Part shown: one piece after another, positions 8,133-32,980 of the stretch
Position numbering within the stretch: position 1 is the stretch's first letter
Layout of the letters: every line of letters starts with the position of its first letter
Source: Thermoplasmata archaeon
GTDB lineage: Archaea; Thermoplasmatota; Thermoplasmata; Thermoplasmatales; Thermoplasmataceae
NCBI GenBank assembly: GCA_021806235.1
Contig: JAJZXU010000017.1
Coordinates: forward strand, 1 to 64,000
DNA length: 64,000 nt
Direction of reading: 5' to 3'
Translations under genes and position numbers: made by a program
The notes under the pieces: model-generated
Told to the model about the DNA's origin: nothing
The model's database searches: none
The model's input: the letters and a program-made list of their open reading frames with translations, nothing else

Positions 8133-8136
8133 AATA

Positions 8137-8667: not shown

Positions 8668-9355
8668 TTATAGCCACCTCTTTTTCTGGTATTTTAAATG
8701 TGTATTTCGCACTGCCAATAACAAACATATAATCCTTTATTGTTGAGAATCCCTCATTAAGGTTTGCCATATTATGCCCTGATGATTTTTTAACCTCTAT
8801 TGACTTTATTGTGGCAATCTCACCAACGTGTGATCCACCGGTAATAAACGCCTTATCTCCTATACCCATCTTTATAACATCAGCTATCTGAAGTTCCGGG
8901 ACCTTCATCAGTACCACATCGGAGGTTTTTATATCATTTTTATCTGTTGTTATGGTTTTACCATCATGGAATCCTAACTGTAACCTGTTTTTACTTATTA
9001 CCGTCTTTTTTGTTACCTTTAATAATTTAACGCCCTTATTTTCATCTGGATTTGCCACACTTATAAGTTTGCCCTTTCTATCATATATGATCAGGAAATC
9101 ATGGTCAAATGTGTCTATTGACAGTACATCCATGAAACCCAGTGGGAATCTTCTATCTTTCACTATCTTGCCATCAACTTTAACATGATTTGTATTTAAT
9201 AATCTTGTTATTTCCCTTTCCTTATCTCCAATTTTTAGGTAATCCCTTAATACTATAAGTAAGGGTATGGAGTCTTCCTTTTTGTGTGTTGCTGGCGTGG
9301 GAGTAACAGACCAGAAATTTGTTTTCCTCGGTATTTTCAACTTCCTTGACGCCAT
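8657..9355 (-). CDS. rps4e: Ribosomal protein S4e (start trimmed to MASRKLKIPRKTNFW)
   Basis: S4e N-terminus and S4 RNA-binding motif; Met at 9355 lies just after the rpl24 stop. Confidence 0.92.
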   Translation of the reverse strand: MASRKLKIPRKTNFWSVTPTPATHKKEDSIPLLIVLRDYLKIGDKEREITRLLNTNHVKVDGKIVKDRRFPLGFMDVLSIDTFDHDFLIIYDRKGKLISVANPDENKGVKLLKVTKKTVISKNRLQLGFHDGKTITTDKNDIKTSDVVLMKVPELQIADVIKMGIGDKAFITGGSHVGEIATIKSIEVKKSSGHNMANLNEGFSTIKDYMFVIGSAKYTFKIPEKEVAINDE

Positions 9356-9362
9356 CATAATT

Positions 9363-9908
9363 TTAGTTTTCATCATTATCACCGTCTTCTTTTACATTAT
9401 CCTCACTGGATTCTTCATTATCGTTACCCTCAGAATCTTCACTCTCTGTTTTCTCGTCATCTGTTTCCTCACTGCCTGCTTCCCTATCATCAATGATTTC
9501 CTGTTCTGTTTCCTCCGTGGTTTCTTCTGTTAATTCTTCGTTATTTTCTATATTTTCATTCTCTTCGGGTTCGGGTGCTTCCGGTTCCGGTGGTGGTAAA
9601 CTACGCCTTGCGGTTATATCCTTAATCTTATTATACCTTCCAGGACTTGATAGATCAAGCTTTGTTATAACAAGATTGCTGTGGTCTATGTAATATTCTA
9701 CCTGCTTTCCATCCGCTTTTGCTATTGTTACACCCTCTATGGATATTTTCTTTGATTTGTGGCTTACATCTATTACCTTGCCGCCTTCTCCTTTTCTTGA
9801 TCCTGAAATAATTTTTACAATATCACCCTTGACTATGGGGAATTGCCTTATACCGTATTTTTTACGTAAATCCTTATTTATTGCTACATTTATTTTATTT
9901 TCTAACAT
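9363..9908 (-). CDS. rpl24: Ribosomal protein L24 with about 75-residue acidic C-terminal extension (start trimmed to MLENKINVAIN)
   Basis: KOW motif VKGDIVKIISGSRKGEGGKVIDVSHKSKKISIEGV; tail PPPEPEAPEPEENEN…EDNVKEDGDNDEN. Confidence 0.92.
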   Translation of the reverse strand: MLENKINVAINKDLRKKYGIRQFPIVKGDIVKIISGSRKGEGGKVIDVSHKSKKISIEGVTIAKADGKQVEYYIDHSNLVITKLDLSSPGRYNKIKDITARRSLPPPEPEAPEPEENENIENNEELTEETTEETEQEIIDDREAGSEETDDEKTESEDSEGNDNEESSEDNVKEDGDNDEN

Positions 9909-9916
9909 AATACACC

Positions 9917-10315
9917 TCATACTATTGTTGATGCTATTGATGCTATTCTGGGCCACCTTTCAGCTGCCTCCCTTGCAACCGGTCCCTTAATCTCAGAACC
10001 ACGTACTTCTCCTTCAAGGGTAACAAGAACAGCTGCATTATCCTCAAATTCTATAATATTACCATCCGATCTCCGGTAGGGTCTCTTCTGCCTCACTACT
10101 ACAGCATATACAACCTTTGCTCTCATCTCTGGAGTTCCCTTCTTAACACTTGCAATGAATAAATCACCAACACCAGCAGAAGGTATTCTTCTTGCAACCG
10201 TATGTAAATCCTTTACACCAATAAGGCTTACTATTTTAGCACCTGTATTATCGACACAGGGTATTACCGCACCTAAAGGTAAACCCCTTGATTCATTTCC
10301 CGAAATTCCTTTCAT
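9917..10315 (-). CDS. rpl14: Ribosomal protein L14
   Basis: GAVIPCVDNTGAKIVSLIGV…FEDNAAVLVTLEGEVRGSEIKGPVARE. Confidence 0.95.
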   Translation of the reverse strand: MKGISGNESRGLPLGAVIPCVDNTGAKIVSLIGVKDLHTVARRIPSAGVGDLFIASVKKGTPEMRAKVVYAVVVRQKRPYRRSDGNIIEFEDNAAVLVTLEGEVRGSEIKGPVAREAAERWPRIASIASTIV

Positions 10316-10645
10316 TTACTCCACCTTCTCAATGACGACAAAATTTATGGTTTTTGCAAGTTTTCTGCATTCACCAATCCTTACAATATCTCCGGGTTTT
10401 ACATCAATGCAATCCGGCAGATGTGCGTGATATTTTTTAAATTTTGTTCTGTATCTTTCGTATTTTTTTATGTATTCCTTTGTTTCTCTTTGAATTATAA
10501 TACTGCGTTCCATTTTTACAGATATAACCTTACCTGCTATCATCTGACCTCTAACAGGTAAACTACCGTGAAATGGACAGTTTATATCGTTACATTCCTT
10601 TTCTGGTGGTTTAACATCTATTCCTATGTTTCTCATTTCTATCAT
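10316..10645 (-). CDS. rps17: Ribosomal protein S17
   Basis: CPFHGSLPVRGQMIAGKVISVKMERSIIIQRE…PGDIVRIGECRKLAKTINFVVIE. Confidence 0.94.
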   Translation of the reverse strand: MIEMRNIGIDVKPPEKECNDINCPFHGSLPVRGQMIAGKVISVKMERSIIIQRETKEYIKKYERYRTKFKKYHAHLPDCIDVKPGDIVRIGECRKLAKTINFVVIEKVE

Positions 10646-10931
10646 TACTCCTTAACCTTTTGTATATTTTTCTCCTATCCTTTGTTCTATCTTCGGGGCG
10701 TATCATTATTATATCGCCATCCACATCATAGAAACAGTTACCAAATTTTATGGTAAATATTGTTCTATGTTTTGGTATTTTCATTATCTTATTATTATTC
10801 TGGATGAACATCATATTTTTTGTCTCATTTATTAATTTGCCATGAATATTTATATTATTTATATTTGATGATTTCTTTATATTCACTTCATTACCGATAA
10901 ATTCAGAGATGTATACATTATCTGAATTCAT
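10611..10931 (-). CDS. rnp1: Ribonuclease P protein component 1 (Rpp29/Pop4)
   Basis: HGKLINETKNMMFI…KIPKHRTIFTIKFG; position between SUI1 and rps17. Confidence 0.85.
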   Translation of the reverse strand: MNSDNVYISEFIGNEVNIKKSSNINNINIHGKLINETKNMMFIQNNNKIMKIPKHRTIFTIKFGNCFYDVDGDIIMIRPEDRTKDRRKIYKRLRSNDRNEKHRNRC

Positions 10932-11227
10932 ACCATCTGAACCTTGAATCCCATGTTTTCCAGTTCCTTTTTCATAACGTCACGGTGATCGCCCTGCAGT
11001 TCTATTGACCTGCCATCCTTTACTGTTCCACCCGATGCTGCTTTCTTCTTTAATACCTTTGCAATCTCATTAATGTTCTCAGATTTCGGGTCTATGCCAT
11101 CAATAACAGTGACCATCTTGCCATACCTTCTTTTATCAACGCTAATTTTTACCAGTTCATTATCACGGTTGAAACCTTCCCATGGTTGCAATTCCTTTGG
11201 CATGCCGGTAAAGTTTTTATCTTTCAT
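10928..11227 (-). CDS. Translation initiation factor aIF1 (SUI1)
   Basis: RRYGKMVTVIDGID…KKKAASGGTVKDGRSIELQGDHRDVMKKELENMGF. Confidence 0.93.
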   Translation of the reverse strand: MKDKNFTGMPKELQPWEGFNRDNELVKISVDKRRYGKMVTVIDGIDPKSENINEIAKVLKKKAASGGTVKDGRSIELQGDHRDVMKKELENMGFKVQMV

Positions 11228-11439
11228 TATTTTTTTTCCTCCATTACAGTTAATATTCTTGCGATCTGCCTTCTGAGTGACCTGGTCTTACCAGGACTTG
11301 CAGGAGCACCACCCATTGCCACTGCAGATCTTTCCCTTAATAATGATTCCTTTAATGATTTTAATTTCTCATTTAATTCATCATCATTCATATTTCTTAA
11401 ATCCTTAGTTTTTAGCTCCATTATCCTCAACTCCATCAT
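11227..11439 (-). CDS. rpl29: Ribosomal protein L29
   Basis: [57 protein letters not shown]. Confidence 0.93.
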
Positions 11440-12070
11440 TATTTAAATTGTTATTTACTTTTGCACTCTCAACTATTACGCTGTTGTTAATATCAATTTC
11501 ATCCGGTAATCTGTAGTTTGTTTTTAATAATTTAACGTAAATACCTATAACGCCTGTTTTAAGCATGGCAACGGAATAACCGCCAGCAACTCCTGATCTT
11601 GCAGGTTCCCCTGAATATTTTATCTCTCCATACATGAACTTCTGTGTACGTGCTCTTTCACCGGATATTTTGCCGCTTATCCTTATTAAAACACCACGTG
11701 CATGCTGATCCATTATCCTTCTCAGTGTTGTTGTGCCTGCCTTCCTGTAATTCCAGCCCTTTTCAAGGAATAATGCAATTTTCTTTGATACAATCTGCGG
11801 GTTTAAATCTGGATTTTCTACCTCCTTAACCTCTATCTGTGGTGCCTCTAAACCGTATTTTGTTTCCAGTGCCAGTGTCATTTCCTTTATTTTTGATCCA
11901 TGGCGACCTATTACAAGACCGGGTCTGTTTACGTATAATGTTATATTTGTTCCAAATGGAGTTCTCTTCATTTCCATTCCACCAAATCCGGCATTATCAT
12001 TCTCCGTTCTTAAATATTCGGTAACCAGCAATTTTTTAATGTTATCACTTACAAATTTTTTCTCTTTCAT
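11405..12070 (-). CDS. rps3: Ribosomal protein S3 (start trimmed to [13 protein letters not shown])
   Basis: KH motif [50 protein letters not shown]. Confidence 0.93.
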
Positions 12071-12074
12071 ACAA

Positions 12075-12524
12075 TCACTCCTTTTCATTTTCCGTTACTA
12101 TTATCTCAAGATTTATTAAATCCTTAAAGAAAGCTCCTGCCCTTCCATATGCTTTTGGAGTGAATTTTTTCACCATTCTGCCCTTTGATGCGGATATATG
12201 AAAAATCTTCAAATCGTCTGATAAACCTTTGAATTCTGCATTTGCAGATGCATCATCTAAAAGTTTTTTGAATTCCCCTGCCGCTTTTATCGGGAATCTT
12301 CCCGGGCCTGTTGCCTTTTTATGTGAAACTGAATCAAGGTATCTGAAATATGGTACCGGTGTTTTCTTTTCAATAACACTATCTATAACATCTTTTGCAG
12401 ATTCAACGTCCATACCCCTGATAAAATGGGCTATATTAACCGCATCCTTCTCTGATATATCCGTTTCGTTAACCCTTGCCTTCGCATATTTTTCCGGTAA
12501 TTTATCTATACTGTATCCTTTCAT
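12075..12524 (-). CDS. rpl22: Ribosomal protein L22
   Basis: Operon position; [20 protein letters not shown]-like C-terminus. Confidence 0.93.
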
Positions 12525-12529
12525 TTACA

Positions 12530-12985
12530 TCACTTCAGTGGTAAGAATTTGGATGACCTTGTGGCTCCAACTCCGGGTCCGGAGTGTTTTACTACCTTTC
12601 TTGTTGGTGCAAATTCACCTAAATAATGACCTATCATTTCGGGCCTTATTTCAAATTTAAGATAGGAATTACCATTGTAAAGTTCTATAGTTTTACCTAT
12701 GAACTGGGGTAAAATTATTATATCCCTTACATGTGTTTTTATCCTTTCTTTATCGCCCAGTAAATCATCAAACGCCTTTTTTTGTTCGTGATTCATTTCC
12801 CTGTTATATGACCTTCTAACCCTTGCCGGGAAAATTTCCATTAACTGAGCTAATTCCATATCCTGCAATTCTTCTACAGTGTGCCCACGGTATGAAAACT
12901 CTCTGGTTCTTCCCGTAATAGCCCTCTGGGCCTTTCTTGATCTCCTTTTAATTGATTTTACAGATGCCTGCCTTCTAACTACCAT
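12530..12985 (-). CDS. rps19: Ribosomal protein S19
   Basis: [16 protein letters not shown]…[28 protein letters not shown]. Confidence 0.95.
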
Positions 12986-13677
12986 TTCTTATTCCTCCTT
13001 TTTGGTGATAATCTACCCACCTTTGCACCCGGTGGTGATCCTCTAGCAACTGTGCTTGGTCCTCCAACATGCTGATGATTTCCACCTCCATGTGGATGAT
13101 TAACAGCATTCATTGCAACTCCCCTCACAGTATATGGCTTCTTTGCCTTGCTCTTTAAATATTTTATATGATTTCCTGCCTTTAATATAGGTATATCTCT
13201 TGCACCTGAACCGGCCACTACACCTACCGTTGCCCTGCATCTAGGATTAAACTCCTTTGTATTGCCCGATGGTAATTTTATTGAAACCGAATTGCCATGG
13301 CTTATTATAAGTCCCGCTGAACCAGCTGTTCTGCAGAATTTACCACCATCACCCGGCATGCTTTCTATATTATATACATATGAACCGTCATCTATCTTTG
13401 ATAGATGTGTTGTTGTACCGGTAACTGAATTGCCTTCAGAGCCTATTTTAAGATCCTGGCCTATGTAAGCCCCATTAAATGCCAGCATGTAATTTGTTTC
13501 GTTTTTTTCATTTTTTAATAATAAAAGGGGCGCATTTCTTCCAGGAGCCTGAATTATATCATCTATTTTATAACTCCCATCTCTTGGGTGCTTTATATCA
13601 GTTACATGCCTGTGACTTGGACTCTGATATGTTAACGAACCATGACCCCTTCTCTGTGCTACTATATGTTTTCCCAT
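12979..13677 (-). CDS. rpl2: Ribosomal protein L2
   Basis: [38 protein letters not shown]. Confidence 0.97.
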
Positions 13678-13687
13678 TTATTTCACC

Positions 13688-13936
13688 TCAGAATATTCCT
13701 ATTCTACCTCCTATTTCTTCGGCAGAGAAATCTTTTGATAATTTCGCTATTGCCTTTTTACCTTTTTTTGTTATTAATATATTCAATGATACTACCTTTA
13801 CATCAAATCTTTCTTCTATTTCCTTTTTAATATCCTTTTTTCTGCCCCTGCGATCTACCATGAATGTAAGCTTATTTTCTTTCTCCATCATTAACGTAGT
13901 TTTTTCCGTAACAACCGGAGTTATGATATAATCCAT
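13688..13936 (-). CDS. rpl23: Ribosomal protein L23
   Basis: IITPVVTEKTTLMMEKENKLTFMVDRRGRKKDIKKEIEERFDVKV. Confidence 0.95.
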   Translation of the reverse strand: MDYIITPVVTEKTTLMMEKENKLTFMVDRRGRKKDIKKEIEERFDVKVVSLNILITKKGKKAIAKLSKDFSAEEIGGRIGIF

Positions 13937-13937
13937 T

Positions 13938-14708
13938 TTAATTCACCTCTTCAAGTTCCTTTATTGCAGTTTCTGTGTATAATGTTAATCTTCCTGGAAT
14001 TCCTCCCGGAGCTAATTTTGTTATGCTTAAACTGTTTAATGATGCAGTTTCCACTCCAGGCAATGATGAAAATGCCCTTAATTTCTCATTTGAAGACCCT
14101 ACTACTAATATACTTTTAGGCTGTTTATACGTTCTATTTCTCATTTTTCCCCTTCCGGCTCTTATCTTTTTACCGTTCTTTGACCGTATAATATCATCGT
14201 AAATTCCTATATCAGAAAGCATCTTCACTGCATCCTTTGCCTTTGTTATATTCTCAAGGTCATCCTCAACTATAACAGGGAATGTTAGAGTATCCATAAC
14301 ATCTTCAGATATCCTGTGACCTCTATTTAATACATAGTCTTTATTTGCAGTAAATGCTATTGCACTTAATTTAGCTAATTTTCTTTCCTTTTTATTTATC
14401 TTTTTATATAATACCTTATCACTTCTTGGAGATAATGCACTTCTGCCGCCCACCGTACTTGCCAGCAATACACCCCTTGAGCCACCGGCTAATCTTGGTA
14501 TTCTTGATATACCGTGATTTGGGCCTAGATTATGACCGACCCTTCTGGTTCCTGCCAGTGGGCTTGAACCGTATGGTTGCCTCATTGATAATGATATGGC
14601 TTTAAATGCCTTATGAACAAGGTCTTCCCTTGTATCCATGCCGAACACTGCAGGTAATTCTATTTCCTTTTTCACTTCGCCATTTATTGAATAAACATTT
14701 GCTTTCAT
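13938..14708 (-). CDS. rpl4: Ribosomal protein L4
   Basis: VYSINGEVKKEIELPAVF…GTRRVGHNLGPNHGISRIPR. Confidence 0.95.
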   Translation of the reverse strand: MKANVYSINGEVKKEIELPAVFGMDTREDLVHKAFKAISLSMRQPYGSSPLAGTRRVGHNLGPNHGISRIPRLAGGSRGVLLASTVGGRSALSPRSDKVLYKKINKKERKLAKLSAIAFTANKDYVLNRGHRISEDVMDTLTFPVIVEDDLENITKAKDAVKMLSDIGIYDDIIRSKNGKKIRAGRGKMRNRTYKQPKSILVVGSSNEKLRAFSSLPGVETASLNSLSITKLAPGGIPGRLTLYTETAIKELEEVN

Positions 14709-14710
14709 TT

Positions 14711-15703
14711 TTAATCACCCTGTTTGGATTCCTTTGATATATATGTTATCTCTACCTTTTCCGCATTAACTACCTTCTGCCTTGCAGGGTCCCTTAGTTT
14801 AATCAATCTTTTTGCTGGACCGGATACTGACCCATATAAAAGAATGTAATCATTTTTTACAAGACCGTAGTTAAGGAATCCTCCCTTTACGTTTATATCA
14901 TTGATATCTTCCTTTTTACCGTATTTTACTACCCTTATGTTATGTAATGTTCTCTGATGGAGACCGACCTGACCTGCCTGGGGTACTGTATTTCTAACCC
15001 AGTCGGGATGCCATGGACCAAGGGTTCCTATCATCCTTCTATGTTTTCTATTCTTTTTTGGCAGTAACTTTACTCCAAATCTCTTTACAACACCCTGGAA
15101 ACCCTTTCCCTTTGTAACTGATATTGTATCAACAAATGAACCGTCTGAAGTAAAATCGGTGAAATTTAATTCCTTGCCCAGTTTTTCTTCTGCAAGCTTT
15201 ATTCTATCTTCCATTGTTGATCCACCTACCCTTATCTCAAATATTTCTGGTGTTTTTGAGGGTATACCTGAGACAAGCCCGGGATTTGTGTGTACTAATA
15301 ATCTTACATCTGAAACATCTTTTAATTCTATTTCCCTTGGATTTTTATTTTTAATTTCTGGTATTCTTTTAAATACCTCCTTATCTATATCATCTGCCTT
15401 CTTCTCTGCAAATATTTTTAAACCGTTGTCTCCATCCTCATAATATCTTACCGATATAACCTTTAATGGAGGTACTTCCACAACTGTTACAGGTGCCATT
15501 ATAGTTTTTCCTGCTGTCACACTGGTTTTTCTATAGTCTGTCATCTGTATATGTGTCATGCCAACTTTATAGCCTGCGAATGCCTGAATCTTCGCATTGC
15601 CCTCTATTTCAGGCCATGATCTGATATCAGCCCCAATTTTTTTAGCGCGTACTCTGGGATAATACGCCATTGATCCCCTACGGGAATGATGCGGTGTCGC
15701 CAT
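14711..15703 (-). CDS. rpl3: Ribosomal protein L3
   Basis: HHSRRGSMAYYPRVRAKK…AGYKVGMTHIQMTD…RRMIGTLGPWHPDWVRNTVPQAGQVGLHQRT. Confidence 0.96.
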   Translation of the reverse strand: MATPHHSRRGSMAYYPRVRAKKIGADIRSWPEIEGNAKIQAFAGYKVGMTHIQMTDYRKTSVTAGKTIMAPVTVVEVPPLKVISVRYYEDGDNGLKIFAEKKADDIDKEVFKRIPEIKNKNPREIELKDVSDVRLLVHTNPGLVSGIPSKTPEIFEIRVGGSTMEDRIKLAEEKLGKELNFTDFTSDGSFVDTISVTKGKGFQGVVKRFGVKLLPKKNRKHRRMIGTLGPWHPDWVRNTVPQAGQVGLHQRTLHNIRVVKYGKKEDINDINVKGGFLNYGLVKNDYILLYGSVSGPAKRLIKLRDPARQKVVNAEKVEITYISKESKQGD

Positions 15704-18628: not shown

Positions 18629-19495
18629 TTATATAAATGGATATAATATAATAACAACAAGCAGGATAAAAAGGTACATGTTGGATAAACCAAACGCACT
18701 TCTAAAGTATTTTTTATTATATTCGTGGAATACGGGTTTAAGTACATAGTATATTAGTAAAACATCCATTATAGCTGCTATTGGTATATATGCAAATCCC
18801 AGCTTTATACTGGACACAAATAGTGGAATCATAGAATAAAATATGAGTATAACTGTGTTAACAATAATCCAGAACTCTGCTTTTTTTATGCCTACAACTG
18901 CTGGAAGCATCGGTACATTGCTTTTTTTATAGTCATCGATATTATTTACGGAAAGATTCCAGAAATGCGTGGGTGTCCACATGAATACCAGAAATGCTAT
19001 GAATAGTGAGATTAATGATACTGAATCGGTTAATGATGCCCAGCCCGCCAGTGCAGGGAAACTACCTGCTATACCTCCTATAACAATGTTTAATGATGTT
19101 CTTCTCTTCAATATTATTGTATACAGAACCACATAGCTCAAAAATCCGGCAAATATGAAAACTGCGGTTAACGGGTTGATAAGTACATAACTTATGATAA
19201 ATGAAAAAATTATCATTAATGTGGATACTGCAAATATTTTATTCCTGGTTGATAAATTTAATGTATCTGATCTTGATCTGGTCCTTTTCATCTCTATATC
19301 TATATCCATATCATAAATATTATTGAATATGCTTGCTGACATTGATGCCAGGGTACCGCTTAGTAGTAAATAAAATAAAATCATGGGATAGCCTGTGCTT
19401 CCTGGTACAACGATAAAGCCTGCAACGGCAACTAAATCGATAAGAATAGTAATTTCCATTTTTGTAATTTTCATGAAATTTGTAATCTTTGACAT
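18629..19495 (-). CDS. ctaB: Protoheme IX farnesyltransferase (heme O synthase, UbiA superfamily)
   Basis: NIYDMDIDIEMKRTRSR prenyltransferase motif; FMWTPTHFWNLSVNNIDDYKKSNVPMLPAV. Confidence 0.92.
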   Translation of the reverse strand: MSKITNFMKITKMEITILIDLVAVAGFIVVPGSTGYPMILFYLLLSGTLASMSASIFNNIYDMDIDIEMKRTRSRSDTLNLSTRNKIFAVSTLMIIFSFIISYVLINPLTAVFIFAGFLSYVVLYTIILKRRTSLNIVIGGIAGSFPALAGWASLTDSVSLISLFIAFLVFMWTPTHFWNLSVNNIDDYKKSNVPMLPAVVGIKKAEFWIIVNTVILIFYSMIPLFVSSIKLGFAYIPIAAIMDVLLIYYVLKPVFHEYNKKYFRSAFGLSNMYLFILLVVIILYPFI

Positions 19496-19550: not shown

Positions 19551-20378
19551 TTAATCACCAGCTGACGGTGGTGTTGGTGCTGCGCCATAAAGTGTTGGTC
19601 CATAGTTGTATGTTTTACCATGGTATACAAATGTCTGGTTCATTTCTCCAGCTTTCTGCTGGTTTTCCCATTTTGTAAAGTTATGTGGTGATAATACAAA
19701 TGCAGGCCCCCTCATATGGGCATGCCCTAATCCACACAGTTCAACGCATTCAAATTCGTACAGGCCCGCCTGGGTTATATTTGTCCATATATAGTTATAA
19801 TGCCCCGGGAATGCATCCACTTTGGTTACATTGATCAGATAGAACGAATGCATTACATCAACACTCGTTACATTAAACTGTATTGGCGTATTTGCGGGCA
19901 GTACTACGAAACGCCTTGATGATGAGTGATTTGGATATATAAATATCCACTGCCACTGGTAACCAATGACGTTGATATCTGTGTAATTATGGGCGTTAGT
20001 TGGTGCGCTTGGTGCTGCTCCTGCTACCCTTATTCCATATGCCGGTGGTAAATCGTAAACAAGCAGTGATAGCAGTATAAGGACAACGAATAGCACAAAC
20101 AATTTAAATATTGCTTTATTTCCCCGCTCTATTTCCTCTATTCTACCGGGTCTCATATCCTCCTTGGGGTTATACCTTTCATTCATGAAATTATCTGCTT
20201 CTTTCTTACGGTAACTCTTTATGAATACAAAGATATACCAGAAGGCAAATCCAGCACCGATAACTATTCCTGGCAATATATATGCCAGAAATATTGATGT
20301 TATCTCAGCACCGGTTATTGACCCTTTAGGTATAAGATGGTATACATCCGGAATTATATTATATATACTTTCTAACAT
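19551..20378 (-). CDS. coxB: Cytochrome c oxidase-type subunit II (CuA)
   Basis: CuA motif ECVELCGLGHAHM; two N-terminal TM helices; DVMHSFYLINVTKVDAFPGHYNYIW. Confidence 0.94.
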   Translation of the reverse strand: MLESIYNIIPDVYHLIPKGSITGAEITSIFLAYILPGIVIGAGFAFWYIFVFIKSYRKKEADNFMNERYNPKEDMRPGRIEEIERGNKAIFKLFVLFVVLILLSLLVYDLPPAYGIRVAGAAPSAPTNAHNYTDINVIGYQWQWIFIYPNHSSSRRFVVLPANTPIQFNVTSVDVMHSFYLINVTKVDAFPGHYNYIWTNITQAGLYEFECVELCGLGHAHMRGPAFVLSPHNFTKWENQQKAGEMNQTFVYHGKTYNYGPTLYGAAPTPPSAGD

Positions 20379-20389: not shown

Positions 20390-21007
20390 TCATTTTATTG
20401 TGTAATATGGAGTTGTTACATGGCTACTTACTACCACGAATACATACATACCTGCTTCAGCATGTGTGGTTAAACCGCATACTATCCAGTAATTAGCAGG
20501 CAGTGTGTTGTTCCACCATATTGCTTTGGAATGTGCTGTGTTTCCATACCATATTGGAAGTATTCCACCTGTACTGTTTATAATCTTTTTAACGTGTACA
20601 CTTGTATGTGCCCATACAGGCCCACGTGACCACTGCGATGAGTGTGGCAATTCTATTTTTAATGTGTGTGCCTTTACCTCAAAATTTGTCATATTTGCAT
20701 GTATATCTGCATGTGCCGGTAAATATATTGTCATAGCACCATATGATGTACCATTAAAGTTAAATGGGTATGCATTGGAATGTCCATTTCCCCGACCCCA
20801 TGCAGCCAGTGAAAGATTGACCACTTCATGGATTGTTCCATTTGATGAAGTTACATTGTAATATGGTATATTTCTATGTGCTACTGCACCCTGATCTGAC
20901 ATTACTGTATTTGTTGGTGCATATGATACAACTGTTATTCCTACTGCTGCGATCAATATAACTGCCACTATAAGTACTGCAAATGCAGCTTTTACTAATG
21001 TCTTCAA
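20390..21007 (-). CDS. Sulfocyanin-like blue (type 1) copper protein, TTG start overlapping upstream TGA
   Basis: N-terminal TM; HTLKIELPHS and CGLTTHAEAGMY type-1 Cu motif (C-x4-H-x4-M). Confidence 0.85.
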   Translation of the reverse strand: MKTLVKAAFAVLIVAVILIAAVGITVVSYAPTNTVMSDQGAVAHRNIPYYNVTSSNGTIHEVVNLSLAAWGRGNGHSNAYPFNFNGTSYGAMTIYLPAHADIHANMTNFEVKAHTLKIELPHSSQWSRGPVWAHTSVHVKKIINSTGGILPIWYGNTAHSKAIWWNNTLPANYWIVCGLTTHAEAGMYVFVVVSSHVTTPYYTIK

Positions 21008-21225
21008 GAGAACCACCTGCCCATAAATACATTCAGGAATAGCCATAGTGAAAACCATATAGCTATTACAATTATAGCAAGTGCGTACGGGTTTTTCCAT
21101 ATACCAATCTCGTTGTATTCTAAGTCGTCATCCCCCAGTTCCATTTCAACGTCCTCGTATTCGTAAGACTTTTTCATCTCCTTCTTATTTACCTTCTCAG
21201 ATTTTTCATTATTTATATCAACCAT
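21004..21225 (-). CDS. Small single-TM protein (73 aa), candidate accessory subunit of the oxidase
   Basis: Charged N-terminus then KNPYALAIIVIAIWFSLWLFLNVFMGRWFS; between sulfocyanin and coxI/III genes. Confidence 0.8.
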   Translation of the reverse strand: MVDINNEKSEKVNKKEMKKSYEYEDVEMELGDDDLEYNEIGIWKNPYALAIIVIAIWFSLWLFLNVFMGRWFS

Positions 21226-21236: not shown

Positions 21237-23738
21237 TCACGCCACAAAGGCTATTGTAGTGAATACACTTGTAAGGAATACAAATGCAATGAACCACATT
21301 AGTATATTTGCACTTGTTGCAGTTCTTCCCCATAATATCCTCTTGCTTTTCTTTATCTGTATCATGTATCTTACCATTACAGCTATTACACCTACAGCAA
21401 ATAATACATCCATCAATGATATCATCCAGAACATAGATGACATTGGGTTTGCTCCTATTCCTGCAAGACCAAGTGCACTGTATGAATTTATTACTACGAA
21501 TGATAACAGGGATGTTATAAGATATATCACCGCAAATACTGTTGCTATTAACATATAGCTGAATGATTTGTTTCTGTTCTTTCCTATAGCACCACCTAAT
21601 GAGAACCAGGAGAATAAACCCGCTATTCCTATAGTTATTATTGATATTGCTATATATACAGATGCCAGTGATGGGAAGAAGAATGTTGTTGGATCGCTTC
21701 CTTGCACATATGGTGAAACTGACTGTAGTTTTATCCATTCCACCATACCATAGAATGTTGCCATCCATATCATATCACCTGCAAGGAATATTAACATTCC
21801 AAGCCTCATGTTGTTGAGGCCTTTTGTAATAGGTTCTTTCCTGTATGTGGGTGGTACGTTGGGTGATTTTAATTTGTAATCATCGTACATCCATCTGAAA
21901 CAGCCCAGTACAAATATCGCCAGTGCAACTGCAACTACTACATATCCAAGATATGCATAGACTGTTCCAAAGGCGTATGGTTTATATCCCATCAGGGTTA
22001 CAACTGCACCAACGAATGCTAGGAAAAGTCCACTGGCTATAAGTAGTGGTGCAGATGATAATTCCACTTTAGATGGTGCTATTGGATGATGTTGATCCAT
22101 TAATAAATCCCTGTGATCTTTACCACCTACATATGGTTCATAGTCAAAGTTATAATATTTTGGAGGATTTGTTGTGAACCATACAAATCCTGCTGTTGCT
22201 TTGTAAGGATTTGTTTCACTTATTGGTTTGTGTTTCTTCAAAGCGTAACCAAAGTTTGCAAACATTATAAGGAAGGATAAACCGAATATAAATGCACCTA
22301 CTGTTGATATCTGGTTAATTATCGTATAACCAGATCCGGCCTGATATGTATAAACCCTTCTGGGTAAATCATACAGGAAGAACATCGGGAAATATAATAC
22401 ATTTACACCTATATATGCAATTGCCCAGTGTATTCTTCCTAATGTTTCATTATACATTTTCCCGGTAAATTTGGGGAAATAGTAATATAAGTTGCCTATT
22501 AAGGCCATTGTAGCCACTCCTACCATGAAGTAATGGAAGTGCGCCACTATGTAATAATCACCGTGAACTATTGTGTCTATGGCAAGTGATGAGTTGGTAA
22601 CTCCTGTTACACCACCTATCATAAATGATGTTGATGCTGCAAGTGCAAATAATACTGGTGTCTGGAATTTGTGCTTTGCACCAAGTAATGTTGCTATTAT
22701 GCCTACTATAAGCATTGATGTGGGTATCGATATGGTTTCTGTGAATATACTATCTGCCATTAACCATGCAAATATTATGCCTGTCATAAATGTATGATGC
22801 AGGAATACCATTACACTATCAACCGATATTGCACCCATTGCGGCTATCATCCATTTTTTAAGGTAAGGCGCCTTATGGCCAAGATTTGACAGATAGTCAA
22901 ACATTGCACCTGTTCCGGGTAATAGCAATAGGTAAACTTCTGGATGACCGAAGTACCAGAATAGGTTTTCCCACATTAATGCACCACCATATGTTGATAT
23001 GTATACTGAAAAACCAAAAACGTTTGATAGAACCAGTATAAAGAACATTGCAGTAATTTCAGGGAAGACAAACCATGATATCATTGCAACCCATAGTATA
23101 GCCCATGCGAATAAGGGTAAATCCATTAATCTGAAACCTCTTGCTCTTGCCTTGAATATTGTTGCTATAACCTCTGTAGAAGCTATTATGGTACCAAATC
23201 CCCTGAGCACCACAGCGGCAGCAGCACTATCGGCTCCAAGATATGGTGTAAATTTAAATGATGATAGGGGCTGGTATACAGTCCAGCCCGTATCTAAATT
23301 GCCACCGGGTAAAAAGAATCCCGCCCATAATAATAGTCCACTGAATAGATATAACCAGTAACCCAATGCATTAATTCTTGGGTAAATCATATCTCTTGAC
23401 CCTATTGCCAGCGGTATTAAATATATACCAAAGCCAAAACCCAGTGGGCCTAAAAACCATACTAACATTGTCAATCCATGTAGTGTTACTAACTGATTGT
23501 ACTGTAGTGCATCAAGAAATCTTCCTGAGAACAAACTGAAATTGGTAAGGTCATACCTCGGTATTGTCAGTTGTATTCTCATCAATAATGCAAGTACACC
23601 ACCTCCAATAAAGAAAACCAATGATGTCAATATATACAATAGACCTATCTGTTTATGGTTTGTTGAAAAGACCCAACCTTTCACAGAATTATAGATCTTA
23701 TTATTTTCTTCGTACACTTCATTATTTCTGCCTTCCAT
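21237..23738 (-). CDS. Fused heme-copper oxidase subunits I + III
   Basis: Subunit I ligands TLHGLTM, GHPEVY, HHTFMTG, HFHYFMVG; C-terminal subunit III segment NNMRLGMLIFLAGDMIWMATFYGMVEW. Confidence 0.95.
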   Translation of the reverse strand: MEGRNNEVYEENNKIYNSVKGWVFSTNHKQIGLLYILTSLVFFIGGGVLALLMRIQLTIPRYDLTNFSLFSGRFLDALQYNQLVTLHGLTMLVWFLGPLGFGFGIYLIPLAIGSRDMIYPRINALGYWLYLFSGLLLWAGFFLPGGNLDTGWTVYQPLSSFKFTPYLGADSAAAAVVLRGFGTIIASTEVIATIFKARARGFRLMDLPLFAWAILWVAMISWFVFPEITAMFFILVLSNVFGFSVYISTYGGALMWENLFWYFGHPEVYLLLLPGTGAMFDYLSNLGHKAPYLKKWMIAAMGAISVDSVMVFLHHTFMTGIIFAWLMADSIFTETISIPTSMLIVGIIATLLGAKHKFQTPVLFALAASTSFMIGGVTGVTNSSLAIDTIVHGDYYIVAHFHYFMVGVATMALIGNLYYYFPKFTGKMYNETLGRIHWAIAYIGVNVLYFPMFFLYDLPRRVYTYQAGSGYTIINQISTVGAFIFGLSFLIMFANFGYALKKHKPISETNPYKATAGFVWFTTNPPKYYNFDYEPYVGGKDHRDLLMDQHHPIAPSKVELSSAPLLIASGLFLAFVGAVVTLMGYKPYAFGTVYAYLGYVVVAVALAIFVLGCFRWMYDDYKLKSPNVPPTYRKEPITKGLNNMRLGMLIFLAGDMIWMATFYGMVEWIKLQSVSPYVQGSDPTTFFFPSLASVYIAISIITIGIAGLFSWFSLGGAIGKNRNKSFSYMLIATVFAVIYLITSLLSFVVINSYSALGLAGIGANPMSSMFWMISLMDVLFAVGVIAVMVRYMIQIKKSKRILWGRTATSANILMWFIAFVFLTSVFTTIAFVA

Positions 23739-23944: not shown

Positions 23945-24724
23945 TTGAAATTTTGGTATATGGCAAAGGAAAGGAATATAGATTATAAATTATTGACTTT
24001 CTTTATAATCTTCCTGATAATTGTTGCGTTTCTAGGTATATATGGTGCATACCATTATAATCCATCAGATGAGAACATAGAACTTGAACAGTACTGTCAA
24101 ATAAGCACTTCCAATTTAATAAAAAATAACAGCAATGAACATATTTATTTTGTTTCCTGGGGTGGTAGCCCATTTGGTGCTGCGAGTTCATGGGCTATAT
24201 ACTCGTTTTTGAATGAATGGGGTGTGCATAATATAAAATATAACTATACGGAATCTATGAATAATTTTCAGTATAACAATACACCTGGATTAATGTTATA
24301 CAACAGTACGTATAATTTCACATATAACAGCCATGCGGTTACATTGAGTACAATTTACTTATATGGTAAAAATATCTCTAATAATAGCCAGGAAATAAAA
24401 TTGGGGCTTAATGAACTAAAAAACATGGTGCCCAAAGATGTGTATAATGAAATAAAAATATATACAACCGAAGCCATAGTAGATGGTACAAGCAATACAA
24501 GTGCAAACATGAGCAGTATACCACATATAAATACTGTAACGTTGATAACTGGAAAGGATGGAGCCTATTTGTTTAACGGTTACCTTTTGTACCCCGGTAA
24601 TTCAGGTTTGGTCAATAATAGTAAACCATTAACTCCTGAAGTTGTAATGGGAAATATAACCTCTATAGGGGGTATAAAAACCTCTATAGGGGGCATAGAA
24701 ACCACATTAAATAAGGTTAAATAA
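23945..24724 (+). CDS. DUF929-like membrane-anchored protein
   Basis: N-terminal TM; YFVSWGGSPFGAASSWAIYSFLNEWG resembles the DUF929 signature. Confidence 0.65.
   Translation: MKFWYMAKERNIDYKLLTFFIIFLIIVAFLGIYGAYHYNPSDENIELEQYCQISTSNLIKNNSNEHIYFVSWGGSPFGAASSWAIYSFLNEWGVHNIKYNYTESMNNFQYNNTPGLMLYNSTYNFTYNSHAVTLSTIYLYGKNISNNSQEIKLGLNELKNMVPKDVYNEIKIYTTEAIVDGTSNTSANMSSIPHINTVTLITGKDGAYLFNGYLLYPGNSGLVNNSKPLTPEVVMGNITSIGGIKTSIGGIETTLNKVK
24659..24700 (+). repeat. Two tandem 21-bp direct repeats (ACCTCTATAGGGGGYATARAA), in frame, encoding TSIGGIK-TSIGGIE
   Basis: Direct reading; copies differ at two positions. Confidence 0.9.
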
Positions 24725-27721: not shown

Positions 27722-29281
27722 TCAGTTTTGATTGGATTCTTTTGCTATCCCTCTTCTTTTATTTTTTATTATATAGGGTTCTTCCGGTATTGAATATTGA
27801 TACATTGTATCTATTGTACTTAACCACATAAATGGCAATGCAACCCCCCACAATATCGCAGAAAAGTATATTTGCTGTGTTACCCCATATAATGGATATA
27901 ATGTGGTTACATTTATAAGGGATATATAGAACAGTACAAGTGCTGTCATACTGAACATCATTGAATTAAACTCAACGTATGCCCTTTTAAGTTCATATAA
28001 ATTAATGTAAACAAGATATGTTATCAATCCTGATACAAGAGAAAATATGTTCATAAGCAGATAAAACATATAATATGTATATGCATAGTAAGCTATTGAT
28101 GGAATGAACCATATAAACATTAATAATGAGGCACCTATAACCATAGCGATTTTTATTTTATTATTCCTGATATTTGGTTTTATGCCTATTTTTGTTAATA
28201 CGTATACAAGGAATATGCCTGCAACAAACATTAATATGTTGATGCCATAAAAGAATAATAATGATGTAAATTCAAGATTAAAGGCTATTCCCAGGGTTTC
28301 AGCTACGGGTGTAATAATTATAAAGAATATTGCCAGTAATGGGAATGCGTTGCTATTCCTTATATCCTTTATATTGGAAACAAGTTTAATTCTTGATCTT
28401 TTTGTAAGAAAAACAGTAAGCATAAAATTACTGAATAGAAGCAATGCTATGCTTTCTGATAATAGTACTGTGCTTACAGTGGTGGCAATTACGGCAGCCA
28501 CAGTTGGCAGAGTTGCCGTTAACCCCTCACACTGGCAGCTAAGTACGGAAATACCACCACTTACTGTTGGACTTATCAGAGTTTTTGCATTGTTTCCTTT
28601 CTTATTATTTCCCATCTGGGATTTCCCGGTACCACCCTTCACTATGCCAAATATTAAAAAGTAGTTTTCTGTTAATAAGGCTGCGAGTATAACATAAAGT
28701 ATTATTGACTGAATTCCCACAGTAAGGTTCAGATAATTCACCCTCGTTATAATGCCATAATAGAAGAAGAATGGAACTTTTGACGCTGGAAAATCAGCAT
28801 AGATCGAATCAACAACTATTTTTGTGGGTTCTACCGGTACAGTTACTACAAGAAATTTTGATATAAACAGCATTATAAATAATATAAGGATAAATGTGGC
28901 ACCACGATAGAAAAGCTTTTTGTCCTTCCTGAAATATGTTATATCTATTATATCTGTATAAAATGCTAATGTAAACAGGACTAAAACCTCTATTAATGGG
29001 TAAATTATGTATGTAAACAACAGTATGATAAATGTTACAAGGCCTATGAATAGAAAATATGCATATATTCTATTGACTATGGAATTTTTTCTGAAAAAAA
29101 CTAGAAGTGGCAATATAACGTATGGCAAAATAATAAACAAAAATTGGTATGCTGCTGGATATAACCTTGTTGAGTATACAACAAAAACGCCGGTAATATA
29201 AGAATAAAAAAATAAGTATATTGTGAATACAGATATTAATATGCTTTCTATAGCTTCTCTCTTCATATTATTGGATATCAA
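27722..29281 (-). CDS. Polytopic membrane protein (519 aa) with SCQC motif, unknown function
   Basis: Many TM helices; conserved-looking GGISVLSCQCEGLTATLPTVAAV segment. Confidence 0.8.
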   Translation of the reverse strand: MISNNMKREAIESILISVFTIYLFFYSYITGVFVVYSTRLYPAAYQFLFIILPYVILPLLVFFRKNSIVNRIYAYFLFIGLVTFIILLFTYIIYPLIEVLVLFTLAFYTDIIDITYFRKDKKLFYRGATFILILFIMLFISKFLVVTVPVEPTKIVVDSIYADFPASKVPFFFYYGIITRVNYLNLTVGIQSIILYVILAALLTENYFLIFGIVKGGTGKSQMGNNKKGNNAKTLISPTVSGGISVLSCQCEGLTATLPTVAAVIATTVSTVLLSESIALLLFSNFMLTVFLTKRSRIKLVSNIKDIRNSNAFPLLAIFFIIITPVAETLGIAFNLEFTSLLFFYGINILMFVAGIFLVYVLTKIGIKPNIRNNKIKIAMVIGASLLMFIWFIPSIAYYAYTYYMFYLLMNIFSLVSGLITYLVYINLYELKRAYVEFNSMMFSMTALVLFYISLINVTTLYPLYGVTQQIYFSAILWGVALPFMWLSTIDTMYQYSIPEEPYIIKNKRRGIAKESNQN

Positions 29282-29332
29282 TAACTACGAATAAGTTTAA
29301 TTATAGAATAATGTCTACAATCACATAATAAT

Positions 29333-31555
29333 ATGATAACACAATTGCATAACCAGATGGGTAACCTTACATTAATTTTAGGACTGATTACGATAATTAT
29401 AATGGTTACTTACATAGTATTAGTATTTTCATACGTCCTCAGGCATAAATATGATATAACATTTGTAAGGGTAGCTGTAATAGGCATATTTACGGCCATG
29501 ATGGCAAGCATGCTTGACGCGTTATTACTTTATATTACAACAGCAAGGAATTTTTTAGATACAAGCCTTGCATTCGCTTTTGGAATGATTTTAATGACAC
29601 AACCGCTGGTTGCAACGTTTGTTGGAGTGATGCATGGCGGATTGCACAGAAAAGGTATTACAAAATCAAATTCAATAGCATTTACCGGGCTTATAGTATG
29701 GAATGAAATATCTATGGGATTATTCCTCTATTATCTTTTTAACCCAACAATAATACATTTTGACTATTATCATGCATTTTATTCCCCTGATTTTATATAT
29801 GCCCTAAGTAATGGAATAAATACCCTGTATTTCCTTATACCCATGAGCGTAGAGATGATTGCATTATTCTTTGTTTATAAACCAAAGGGAATGCATAAAT
29901 ATGCGGCAATATCAATATTTACTATGGATTTATTTTCCCCCACAATACTGGGGAACGATAAATTTGTTTTCATAGGTGGTGTTGGAGAAACAGCGGTTAT
30001 GATAATATTTATGATAATATTCTTTGAATTCATAGCATCACACAAAATGGTACTGCCCAGAGAAGATGCATACCATATAAAAATGATTTTTATAGACTAT
30101 GGCCTTATGGCAGCGGGAACCTTTATCGGTACAATTGTGTTAAAACCATTCGGACTTGTGTGGATATTCTACGCAATGGCTATAATATTTGGTATGTGGT
30201 ATTATTTCCAGAGCATGTTTTCAGTAACAATAAACACAACCACAGAGGTAACAGAGAACAATATTGAGATAAAAAGAAAGAAAACTGTATCAAAACCTGC
30301 CTATTTAATCTTCTTTGTACTGGTAACATCATTTGTATCTGAACTTCTAATGGCAGGTGCGATGGATTTTGCAACGTATGATTACCTTCCCTTTTATAAT
30401 GTTATAGATACTTTGCCTGTTTACGGCCATATTACTATAGCTTCCTTTTATGCAAAGGATGTGTTAAAAGAATTTGTTTCTCCATTTGTTCCAGCTACAA
30501 CAGGAACTAAAAATTTTCTTGTTTTCTACGATATGGCCGGCGGTGTTTATAAATTCACACCTGTATCCATATTTATTGAAATTTTATACATTATTGGTTT
30601 TATAACGGTTTCAACAACATTTTTAATTATAATGGGTATAGAGATGGGTGTCCTGGTAATAGCACAGATGAGAAAATTAAAGGATAGGGGAAAAAGAATA
30701 AACTTAACATTTGCATTAACAGCATATATATTATATACAATATTTGGGCCAAACTTCCTTGATCCGGCATGGTATAATAAATTGCCCCTGTGGGCAAATA
30801 CTGGTGCAGAGGCAGCATTATACCCAGATCTCATAATACCTTTACTTGGGTCATATGCATTATACGCAGTGCTTGCATTATTATTCGGAAGAAGGTCATA
30901 CTGCTCCACCTTATGCCCATCTGCAGTAATGTTTGGCGGTACTTTAGGGCAATCCATGATACAGTACAATTATAATACAAAAATAAGTAAAAAAATGCGT
31001 GGAAGCAAATTTACAGATTCCATAATGTTTATAGCAACAGGTAGCTGGCTATGGGCTATACTGGCATCATTATTTTCATATTTTTATACAACTACTGGCA
31101 ATTTAACATTCAGCATCTATGGCATAGACCCCTCAGTATTTTATTCGTATTTTATCTGGAATTTATTATGGTATGTATTCTTCTTTTCAATACCGTTTGT
31201 TGGTATGAGCCCGTGCCGTAAATACGGATGGTGCTCTACCGGCACTCTGGTAGGATTTTTCAGTGTTCTGGGATTTTTCAAACTTAAGGTTAAGGATAAA
31301 AATTTATGTAAAACATGTAAAACAAAGGATTGTGCAAAATCCTGTGAGGTTGGTTTATCCACAATGCCCGGGTCATTTATCAAAAATGGTTCCTTCAAGA
31401 GTATTAAATGTGTTGGTTCTGGAGATTGCATAAGGGCATGCCCGTATGATAACATATATTTTTATGATGTGAGGAATTATCTGGGTGAAAAACTCATGCA
31501 TAAAAAAGCAGATAAAAATGAGGAAATAACAAAACTTAAGGAAAATGATTGGTGA
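29333..31555 (+). CDS. Polytopic membrane protein with C-terminal NapH/CcoG-like polyferredoxin region (740 aa)
   Basis: RSYCSTLCPSAVMFGG, SPCRKYGWCSTGT, CKTCKTKDCAKSCEVGL, CVGSGDCIRACPYDNI cysteine clusters after a long TM-rich N-terminus. Confidence 0.85.
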   Translation: MITQLHNQMGNLTLILGLITIIIMVTYIVLVFSYVLRHKYDITFVRVAVIGIFTAMMASMLDALLLYITTARNFLDTSLAFAFGMILMTQPLVATFVGVMHGGLHRKGITKSNSIAFTGLIVWNEISMGLFLYYLFNPTIIHFDYYHAFYSPDFIYALSNGINTLYFLIPMSVEMIALFFVYKPKGMHKYAAISIFTMDLFSPTILGNDKFVFIGGVGETAVMIIFMIIFFEFIASHKMVLPREDAYHIKMIFIDYGLMAAGTFIGTIVLKPFGLVWIFYAMAIIFGMWYYFQSMFSVTINTTTEVTENNIEIKRKKTVSKPAYLIFFVLVTSFVSELLMAGAMDFATYDYLPFYNVIDTLPVYGHITIASFYAKDVLKEFVSPFVPATTGTKNFLVFYDMAGGVYKFTPVSIFIEILYIIGFITVSTTFLIIMGIEMGVLVIAQMRKLKDRGKRINLTFALTAYILYTIFGPNFLDPAWYNKLPLWANTGAEAALYPDLIIPLLGSYALYAVLALLFGRRSYCSTLCPSAVMFGGTLGQSMIQYNYNTKISKKMRGSKFTDSIMFIATGSWLWAILASLFSYFYTTTGNLTFSIYGIDPSVFYSYFIWNLLWYVFFFSIPFVGMSPCRKYGWCSTGTLVGFFSVLGFFKLKVKDKNLCKTCKTKDCAKSCEVGLSTMPGSFIKNGSFKSIKCVGSGDCIRACPYDNIYFYDVRNYLGEKLMHKKADKNEEITKLKENDW

Positions 31556-31561
31556 ATTAAA

Positions 31562-32338
31562 ATGAATGTAATATTATATTACTATTTTATATTCCAGACA
31601 GTTCTTGCATTTGGAATAGTTATAGTTGGCGGTACCGTTGAGGGTTACGGCTATGGCTTATCCCTCGGAACCAACTGGCCATATACAAAGGACATGCCAT
31701 TAAAGGCAAAGGCCGGAGACCCGGAGGTATGGCATAGAATACTTGCAACATTCCTGGGCATTGATGCTGTTATAATGGTTGTGTTAATACACGGAGCACT
31801 TGAAATTACCGGGCTTATCTTAATTATACTTACCGCTTTGCTTGGAATGGCAACCCTGTATACACTGGCAGGCAAAGCTCCATCTGTTGTGCAGGGACTG
31901 CATGATGTACTTGCATATTCAACGGCAATTACATATCTATTGATAGTTACAGGATCATATCCTAATGAAATATCATTAATAATTCATAATATACCGTTAT
32001 TATTCTTCTTTATAGTAATATATATGGGTGGTATGACCACCGGGGAGAGAGGGTATCAGAAAGCAATAGGCTATTTCAAATTTCCTAAAACAAGACCACA
32101 GTGGATATGGACGGTCCACGGGATAAGTGTTGTAATATTCCTATTTTCTCTAATATTTTTCTTTTACAGATACAATATAGCCCTAATAATAATAGCATTT
32201 CAGATAATAGTTGGCATAATAGTATTTATATCGGTTAATAAATCTGCATCAAAACCTGGATTTATAATACCATTGCATCAATTTTTTACAATATTAATAG
32301 TTATATCAATTATACTTCAATTAAGTATATTTAAATAA
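31562..32338 (+). CDS. CtaA/COX15-like (heme A synthase-like) membrane protein
   Basis: About 8 TM; PEVWHRILATFLG (ExxHR), GLHDVLAY, TVHGISVVIF, PLHQFFTILI histidines; no cysteines. Confidence 0.65.
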   Translation: MNVILYYYFIFQTVLAFGIVIVGGTVEGYGYGLSLGTNWPYTKDMPLKAKAGDPEVWHRILATFLGIDAVIMVVLIHGALEITGLILIILTALLGMATLYTLAGKAPSVVQGLHDVLAYSTAITYLLIVTGSYPNEISLIIHNIPLLFFFIVIYMGGMTTGERGYQKAIGYFKFPKTRPQWIWTVHGISVVIFLFSLIFFFYRYNIALIIIAFQIIVGIIVFISVNKSASKPGFIIPLHQFFTILIVISIILQLSIFK

Positions 32339-32353: not shown

Positions 32354-32980
32354 TCATTTTACATTTTCGCGTATTATTTGTTTTATTTCCCTTCTCATCA
32401 GTAAATCTAGAGTTGTTTGTGGTATTCCAAGTACGGATGATAGATCCCTTAAACCTATTTTTTTAGGTACGTCAAAATATCCCCTTTCATAGGCTTCCTT
32501 AAGTATATATTCGGATTTTATGTCTATATGCCTGCCTATATATACCTTGATGTTTGTATCCTCTATATTAAATTTATTTTTTAAAGTATCGTCTATATGC
32601 TTTATTTTATTGTAACCGTTAACATCCATTTCCAGCTGCATATTACCGGCGTAATCAATTCTTTCCAGTTTCATTTTGCTACTATGATTTATCAATCTCT
32701 TCCTTATTATATCTATTACAGGGCATTCCAGTGTTGATATCTGAATCAAAACACAGTTTTTATTTTTTTCAAGTATAGATAGATTATTTGCATGACCATA
32801 ACTATTGAGATACTCAACGGTTTTATCTATTAATTCAGGTGAATTGGAGTATATTGCTACTGTTTCACTCATAACATTATTATCAAAATTCTGGTTTATT
32901 ACCTTTATCCTCACATTAAAATCATGTATTAGCTCATACGCAAAGCATTTGTCATATTTAAAGGAATATAAAACTTTCAT
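32354..32980 (-). CDS. HTH_10 (bacterio-opsin activator-type) transcriptional regulator
   Basis: C-terminal KEAYERGYFDVPKKIGLRDLSSVLGIPQTTLDLLMRREIKQII. Confidence 0.85.
   Translation of the reverse strand: MKVLYSFKYDKCFAYELIHDFNVRIKVINQNFDNNVMSETVAIYSNSPELIDKTVEYLNSYGHANNLSILEKNKNCVLIQISTLECPVIDIIRKRLINHSSKMKLERIDYAGNMQLEMDVNGYNKIKHIDDTLKNKFNIEDTNIKVYIGRHIDIKSEYILKEAYERGYFDVPKKIGLRDLSSVLGIPQTTLDLLMRREIKQIIRENVK

Follow-up and report, generated by a model that had tools for sequence, protein, structure and literature searches.

What do two large polytopic membrane proteins do that are encoded next to iron-oxidising respiratory oxidase genes in an acid-loving archaeon? In the window, the 64,000-nucleotide stretch of DNA analysed here, three open reading frames of 519, 740 and 258 amino acids were named P519 (27722..29281, minus strand), P740 (29333..31555, plus strand) and P258 (31562..32338, plus strand). 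The arrangement given in a preliminary description, in which the 519-aa gene is divergent from the 740-aa gene and a CtaA-like gene follows 6 bp further on, proved to be real, with a divergent gap of 51 bp. P519 and P740 are not chance open reading frames, since homologues were found in 18 and 46 of 150 Thermoplasmata genomes, respectively. The P519 frame opens with TTG; an ATG five codons in, at 29266, matches the start position of relatives and is more likely to be the true start.

Four genes on the minus strand surround this question: CtaB, a heme O synthase (18629..19495; TIGR01473, 243 bits), CoxII with the CuA motif CVELCGLGHAHM (19551..20378), the blue copper protein sulfocyanin (20390..21100; TIGR03094, 241 bits) and the CuB-bearing subunit CoxI (21237..23738), the last three being the copper clients proposed below. 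That CoxI is a CoxI/III fusion is taken from PMC12524180, where the gene is called coxAC. Downstream of P258 lies an HTH_10 transcription regulator (32354..32980, minus strand; PF04967, 42 bits), and in genomes of one genus (g3) another HTH-type regulator is found near the P519/P740 pair. In PMC12524180, which deals with the sulfocyanin gene cluster of Acidiplasma, Ferroplasma and Picrophilus, a figure legend names Fd, COX15 and a hypothetical protein, most likely P740, P258 and P519, respectively; the passages considered here leave both the Fd and the hypothetical protein without an assigned structure or function. FoxG, an initial guess at identity, was dropped for want of supporting evidence; in a review (PMC8280799), Ferroplasma is reported to have no homologue of fox.

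The N-terminal half of P740, rich in predicted transmembrane helices, had been left unplaced in the preliminary description. It still matches no curated family, and its main feature had been missed, namely invariant mid-membrane methionines and glutamates in an internally duplicated domain. Twenty-one columns of this half are invariant in all 22 homologues, and they comprise 11 Met, four Glu and no His, a significant enrichment in Met (P = 1.6e-9). These Met and Glu residues are predicted to lie in transmembrane helices. The half is made up of two homologous repeats (HHalign A versus B, 96.7%, E 4e-10; controls <1%), and the Met/Glu positions match between them. Repeat A spans residues 1-205 (29333..29947, plus strand), with M24, MM56-57/M60, M88, E125/M128, M171/E174/M175 and P203 invariant. 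Repeat B spans residues 206-485 (29948..30787, plus strand), with M223, M288, E337, E437/M438 and P473 invariant, M434 nearly so, and M259 and M340 frequent. Curated families matched P740 only at its Fe-S end, Pfam gave nothing for the N-terminal domain, and AF2 models of moderate confidence gave no significant fold match for either protein by Foldseek against the PDB (best E 0.15 and 0.27). Homology of both large proteins to a characterised complex, raised in the preliminary description as grounds for refutation, was not found. About 41 of the 46 P740 matches were strong, the others covering the Fe-S end only; the full N-terminal domain was found in 40 of 296 genomes of the phylum, with two marginal partial matches in addition.

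In its membrane Met and two-half architecture this domain resembles CcoA, an MFS copper importer of the CalT family that supports an oxidase by means of Met ligands in the membrane (MxxxM, HxxxM; PMC7558416). It differs from CcoA in having no Pfam or significant fold match, many more Met and Glu, no invariant His, and a fusion to an Fe-S region. Judged from its sequence, this two-repeat domain with invariant, putatively intramembrane Met and Glu, joined to a NapH-like part, is new here.

The NapH-like part itself (30800..31555, plus strand) consists of three predicted transmembrane helices and a C-terminal Fe-S region that is predicted to be cytoplasmic. The four cysteine clusters previously noticed at this end were all located (C524xxxC528; C628/C634; C659-C662-C667-C671; C693-C699-C703), and the 11 cysteines are kept in 22 of 22 homologues. 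Residues 503-709 match the NapH model TIGR02163 (E 1.2e-9), which is the likeness to NapH/MauN proteins, but the score is 38.1 bits against a cut-off of 213, the N-terminal domain is unplaced, and the gene stands outside any nap cluster. Pfam matches in the 22 members were to generic Fer4 families only, with no CcoG/FixG-type domain. The window's P740 has the membrane CxxxCP motif (C524xxxC528-P529) and two ferredoxin-like motifs, which are altered (C-x2-C-x4-C-x3-C; S696 where Cys is usual). CcoG carries a CxxxCP-type motif too, and P740 is like it in that respect. CcoG (RdxA/FixG), a membrane protein that carries Fe-S clusters and is associated with oxidase assembly, is a cupric reductase (PMC7558416); P740 would likewise be an Fe-S membrane protein linked to oxidase copper supply in the role proposed here, whereas its purely generic Fer4 matches, altered ferredoxin motifs and large Met/Glu two-repeat domain set it apart.

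P519 is a polytopic protein with about 12-13 transmembrane helices. The sequence GGISVLSCQCEGLTATLP reported for it was confirmed, and P519 contains the motif S-C-Q-C-E (residues 248-252; 28526..28540, minus strand), which is predicted to lie inside a transmembrane helix (236-262 in the AF2 model). C-Q-C-E is conserved in 16 of 16 sequences, as distant as 22% identity, and the serine in 15 of 16. A profile search of 150 genomes found P519 only within the window's own family (all 18 genomes), and no relative was found in Pfam, NCBIfam or the PDB. Homology was found neither between the two halves of P519 nor between P519 and P740. MerE uses a Cys pair in a transmembrane helix for soft-metal transfer (PMC5715351), and the putatively intramembrane Cys pair of P519 would be comparable to those of MerT, MerE and MerF; however, P519 is far larger, and a weak MerE match occurred in one of 15 members at a non-significant E of 0.085.

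The third gene had been described as CtaA-like, which was borne out: P258 is a divergent heme A synthase of the type 0 CtaA/Cox15 class (PMC8239418; also PMC12524180). PF02628 gave no match, and this family model misses the divergent type, but HHalign against a reference of ten same-class CtaA sequences gave 81% (E 1.2e-5; controls <1%), with the GG..GYGLSLGTNWP and EVWHR regions aligned. The class is already known and has been reported for Thermoplasmatales (PMC8239418); P258 differs in falling below PF02628 detection and in its location in the sulfocyanin cluster. Among the loci examined, P258 accompanies P519 and P740 in only two genera (g1 and g2), and it therefore counts as a neighbour and not as one of the core components. 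Conserved synteny, raised earlier as a check, accordingly held for the P519-P740 pair and not for the trio outside these genera. This bears on the possibility that P740 and P519 supply electrons or handle heme for heme A formation together with CtaA and CtaB, for which the 6-bp spacing of P258 and the position of P519 after CtaB in six genomes might speak. We regard it as highly improbable: besides the narrow occurrence of P258, the g3 genomes have the pair without CoxI or an above-cut-off CtaA, and the P740 N-terminal domain has no invariant His.

Gene neighbourhoods tied the pair to copper proteins. In six related genomes P519 lies within a CoxII-CoxI-cupredoxin-CtaB operon, and P740 elsewhere adjoins CoxI/CoxII, cupredoxins and a Cu+-ATPase. 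Among 150 genomes, 35 have both P740 and CoxI, six P740 alone, nine CoxI alone and 100 neither; the association has P = 1e-19, a value uncorrected for kinship and set beside 15 genomes with one gene alone. Four g3 genomes lack CoxI and keep both P519 and P740, and CoxI therefore would not be the sole client. In Thermoplasma-like genomes without CoxI the pair stands beside a CuA-like protein. In two other Thermoplasmata families (f11 and f12) P519 is absent and the neighbour of P740 is another polytopic protein that has a Cys-Cys motif in the membrane: c56 (GGASCCISLP) in four of four f11 loci examined, abutting in three, and c13 (GACCS) in eight clear f12 loci, a count that leaves out a motif-less match (L087) resembling a frameshifted or shadow ORF. 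Hydrophobic CC/CxC motifs occurred in four of 36 clusters of nearby polytopic ORFs, namely P519, c13, c56 and a Cu+-ATPase with CPC. Homology among P519, c13 and c56 was not detectable, so their pairing with P740 rests on the shared motif noticed in this analysis.

Known copper-insertion factors were sought with Pfam models in the CoxI-bearing relatives. The search found neither Cox11 nor PCuAC, nothing above the cut-off for Caa3_CtaG, and Sco matches that were all weak, although such models, which overlooked the divergent CtaA encoded in this genome, could also overlook a divergent Sco or CtaG.

The preliminary description had offered two readings: a module for electron transfer or for metal/heme maturation that serves the oxidase nearby, or an independent quinone/iron redox complex. 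The latter is unsupported, because the cluster is present in Picrophilus, which does not oxidise iron according to PMC12524180, and the pair in presumed Thermoplasma. The former gains partial support from the operon position of P519, the placement of P740 beside CoxI/CoxII and the P740-CoxI correlation. It can be narrowed towards copper because of the membrane Met/Glu and vicinal Cys residues, the nearby cupredoxins and Cu+-ATPase, and the lack of clear matches to known insertion factors. We give an even chance to the reading that P740 and P519 together load copper into cuproproteins outside the cytoplasm, acting as a module of reductase plus Cu(I) relay. The Met/Glu invariants in the duplicated half of P740, the C-Q-C-E of P519 and the vicinal-Cys partners, the co-occurrence with CoxI, the six cox operons, the Cu+-ATPase of the f11 locus and the precedent of the cupric reductase CcoG support it; the f12 pairs, away from cox genes in the loci inspected, the four g3 genomes with the pair and no CoxI, and the nine genomes with CoxI and no P740 count against it. 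The conserved membrane Met/Glu of P740 could also be structural, or ligands for something else.

We infer the metal, the flow and the division of labour as follows. Electrons from a cytoplasmic donor would enter the Fe-S region of P740 and cross the NapH-like helices, so that copper stays in the Cu(I) state. Inside the membrane, the two repeats with their Met and Glu lining would bind and relay Cu(I), and the Cys-Gln-Cys-Glu site of P519 would take Cu(I) or hand it to the client, which may be a cupredoxin (sulfocyanin or a different one), the CuA site of CoxII, and perhaps CuB of CoxI.

The main rival is a respiratory electron-transfer subcomplex, in which electrons would pass through the NapH-like part between a cytoplasmic ferredoxin or quinol and a cupredoxin outside the cytoplasm, and quinone binding or coupling to ion movement would fall to the N-terminal domain. 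Four Cys clusters, four invariant membrane Glu that could carry protons, and neighbours such as sulfocyanin and CoxI/II, with Rieske/cytochrome b added in some lineages, are consistent with this. It is nevertheless unlikely, as no His that could hold heme is invariant in the N-terminal domain, the invariants are mainly Met with vicinal-Cys partners, which are soft-metal ligands, and the f12 pairs lie apart from respiratory genes in the loci inspected. The pair might instead handle or detoxify a different soft metal (Ag or Hg) or surplus copper, by way of efflux or uptake. Such a function would involve the same Met/Cys chemistry and suit the metal-rich habitat of iron-oxidising acidophiles, and the weak MerE match points the same way; it is improbable, since most loci examined tie to oxidase and cupredoxin genes and not to resistance genes. 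The f11 Cu+-ATPase (558 bits for TIGR01511, cut-off 397), encoded in a P740-CoxI-CoxII locus, fits both cuproprotein assembly and soft-metal handling.

A copper-loading P740 and P519 would work like CcoG, CcoA and MerT yet belong to none of them. Somewhat short of an even chance is the broader proposal of a previously undescribed archaeal cuproprotein-assembly system, in which the P740 Met/Glu domain with its own Fe-S reductase and apparently unrelated vicinal-Cys membrane partners would do the job of Sco, Cox11, CtaG and PCuAC in much of Thermoplasmata. If true, this would be a second design in which a copper reductase and a Cu(I) pathway are linked. The analysis suggests a meaning for genes listed so far only as 'Fd' and 'hypothetical' in an iron-oxidation cluster, and it names two specific gene families and testable residues for the way in which archaea with no recognisable Sco, Cox11 or CtaG may furnish aa3-type oxidases and blue copper proteins with copper, in organisms used in biomining.

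The three open reading frames of the preliminary description were recovered as it gave them: a 519-aa protein (P519, 27722-29281, minus strand), a 740-aa protein 51 bp away (P740, 29333-31555, plus strand), and, 6 bp further, a 258-aa protein (P258, 31562-32338, plus strand). The start codon of P519 is TTG, and an ATG five codons downstream is the start position in relatives. The source genome is 1.93 Mb and 99% complete, with the window on its contig C8, and sulfocyanin, CoxII, CoxI and CtaB are encoded at 18.6-23.7 kb of the window. Upstream of this respiratory cluster is an ordinary ribosomal protein operon with SecY (1-15703). A DUF929 protein (23945-24724, plus strand) has GGSPFGAASSW as its thioredoxin-like motif, the position at which other DUF929 members have CPxC.

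A protein search across 150 Thermoplasmata genomes matched P740 in 46; some 41 of these matches were strong, and the remainder covered the Fe-S end alone. A profile of the N-terminal domain gave full matches in 40 of 296 phylum genomes, all from the window's own family (f1) or family f12, plus two marginal partial matches; family f11 was absent from these matches, yet f11 loci do contain the domain. Residues 1-205 are homologous to residues 206-450 (HHalign 96.7%, E 4e-10; controls <1%), and the alignment pairs M24 with M223, E125xxM with E337xxM, and WFxxPMxxEM with WFxxMMGxEM. An alignment of 22 proteins showed 21 columns without variation within residues 1-450: Met in 11, Glu in 4, Phe in 3, and Pro, Gly and Leu in one each, an enrichment of Met over its frequency in P740 (P = 1.6e-9). 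For the C-terminal part there was a NapH match (E 1.2e-9) with a score far below the cut-off. The ferredoxin motifs there (31307-31441) are unusual, C-x2-C-x4-C-x3-C with invariant Cys spacing, and the second lacks one Cys (S696). Hydropathy, charged loops and AF2 helices suggest a predicted topology of six transmembrane helices per repeat and three more in the NapH-like part, with all Cys clusters cytoplasmic. No PDB fold match to the AF2 model (pLDDT 70, pTM 0.76) was found.

A second type of P740, in L053, L062, L064, L066 and L068, adjoins a separate protein of ~285-320 aa in which the conserved Met/Glu pattern recurs. In G082 (L061, 8661-11879) P740 is split over two frames and the P519 start is interrupted, by sequencing error or decay. 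One small contig (L089, contig C2 of G148) carries a second P519/P740 end, 68-72% identical within one assembly, perhaps a strain mixture.

The P519 family was restricted to f1 (18 of 150 genomes, profile search), and no family or fold match was found for it. C-Q-C-E, which lies inside a predicted transmembrane helix (pLDDT 75), N206, W391, P394, E437, P483 and W486 are common to 15-16 aligned homologs with identity down to 22%. In 8 clear f12 loci the gene immediately before P740 encodes a polytopic protein of 430-470 aa with GACCS, and all 4 f11 loci examined have a polytopic protein of 270 aa with GGASCCISLP, which abuts P740 in three. No homology was detectable among these two proteins and P519. 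A hydrophobic CC or CxC occurred in only 4 of the 36 polytopic-ORF clusters of these neighborhoods, namely the three partners and a Cu+-ATPase, a count that is descriptive rather than an independent test because the motif class was defined after the first cases.

P519 and P740 are adjacent and divergent in genera g1 and g2, near sulfocyanin and CoxI/II. Six genomes of g5-g9 carry P519 in what looks like an operon, with the gene order small protein, CoxII, CoxI, blue-copper-like protein, CtaB, P519, CAAX-protease-like protein; in one of the six (G110) the P740 start adjoins this run. In f11, P740 is within a few kb of CoxI/CoxII in 3 of 4 loci, together with sulfocyanin-like or CuA-like proteins, and in two of those three a Cu+-type P1B ATPase is encoded a few kb past CoxII, ~6-8 kb from P740. 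This ATPase carries a YHS domain (L071, 14180-16390; L072, 17430-19547), and its TM7 and TM8 motifs agree with the P1B-1 type. Four g3 genomes have no CoxI; their gene order is CuA-like secreted protein, P519, P740, and Rieske and cytochrome b genes lie close by. The CuA-like protein adjoining P519 in L055, L056, L059 and L061, from genomes without CoxI, reads HTF ... CxxxCG ... M, its second His apparently missing.

Across the 150 genomes, strong P740 matches and CoxI occurred together in 35, P740 only in 6, CoxI only in 9 and neither in 100 (Fisher P = 1e-19, kinship ignored). The exceptions were g3, which has the pair but not CoxI, and families f24 and f25, which have CoxI but not P740. The strongest rival to a copper role for the pair is respiratory electron transfer. 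The iron-specific reading raised earlier fails because the pair is widespread and because Picrophilus carries the cluster but reportedly does not oxidize iron (PMC12524180).

In the loci examined, P258 adjoins the pair in g1 and g2 only. PF02628 had no match in P258 or anywhere in the source genome (HMMER); alignment to same-class CtaA proteins (HHalign 81%, E 1.2e-5; all six control profiles from unrelated membrane proteins <1%) bore out its description as CtaA-like, and by sequence it is a divergent heme A synthase. A 'type 0' CtaA has been attributed to Thermoplasmatales (PMC8239418), and COX15 is named in an Acidiplasma cluster figure (PMC12524180).

With Pfam models, Cox11 and PCuAC were found in none of the 150 genomes and Caa3_CtaG in none above the cut-off, which means not recognizable rather than proved absent, because Pfam also missed P258. 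Sco matches in f1 (~20-23.5 bits against a cut-off of 22.8, ORFs of 153-182 aa; G075 marginally above it) were read as putative peroxiredoxin-like cross-matches.

Membrane Met and vicinal Cys are Cu(I) ligand types. CcoG is an Fe-S-cluster cupric reductase and CcoA uses membrane Met/His motifs (PMC7558416), and MerE uses a membrane Cys pair (PMC5715351). These ligand types and parallels, with the gene contexts, favor a role for the pair in loading copper into extracytoplasmic cuproproteins, a reading given about an even chance.
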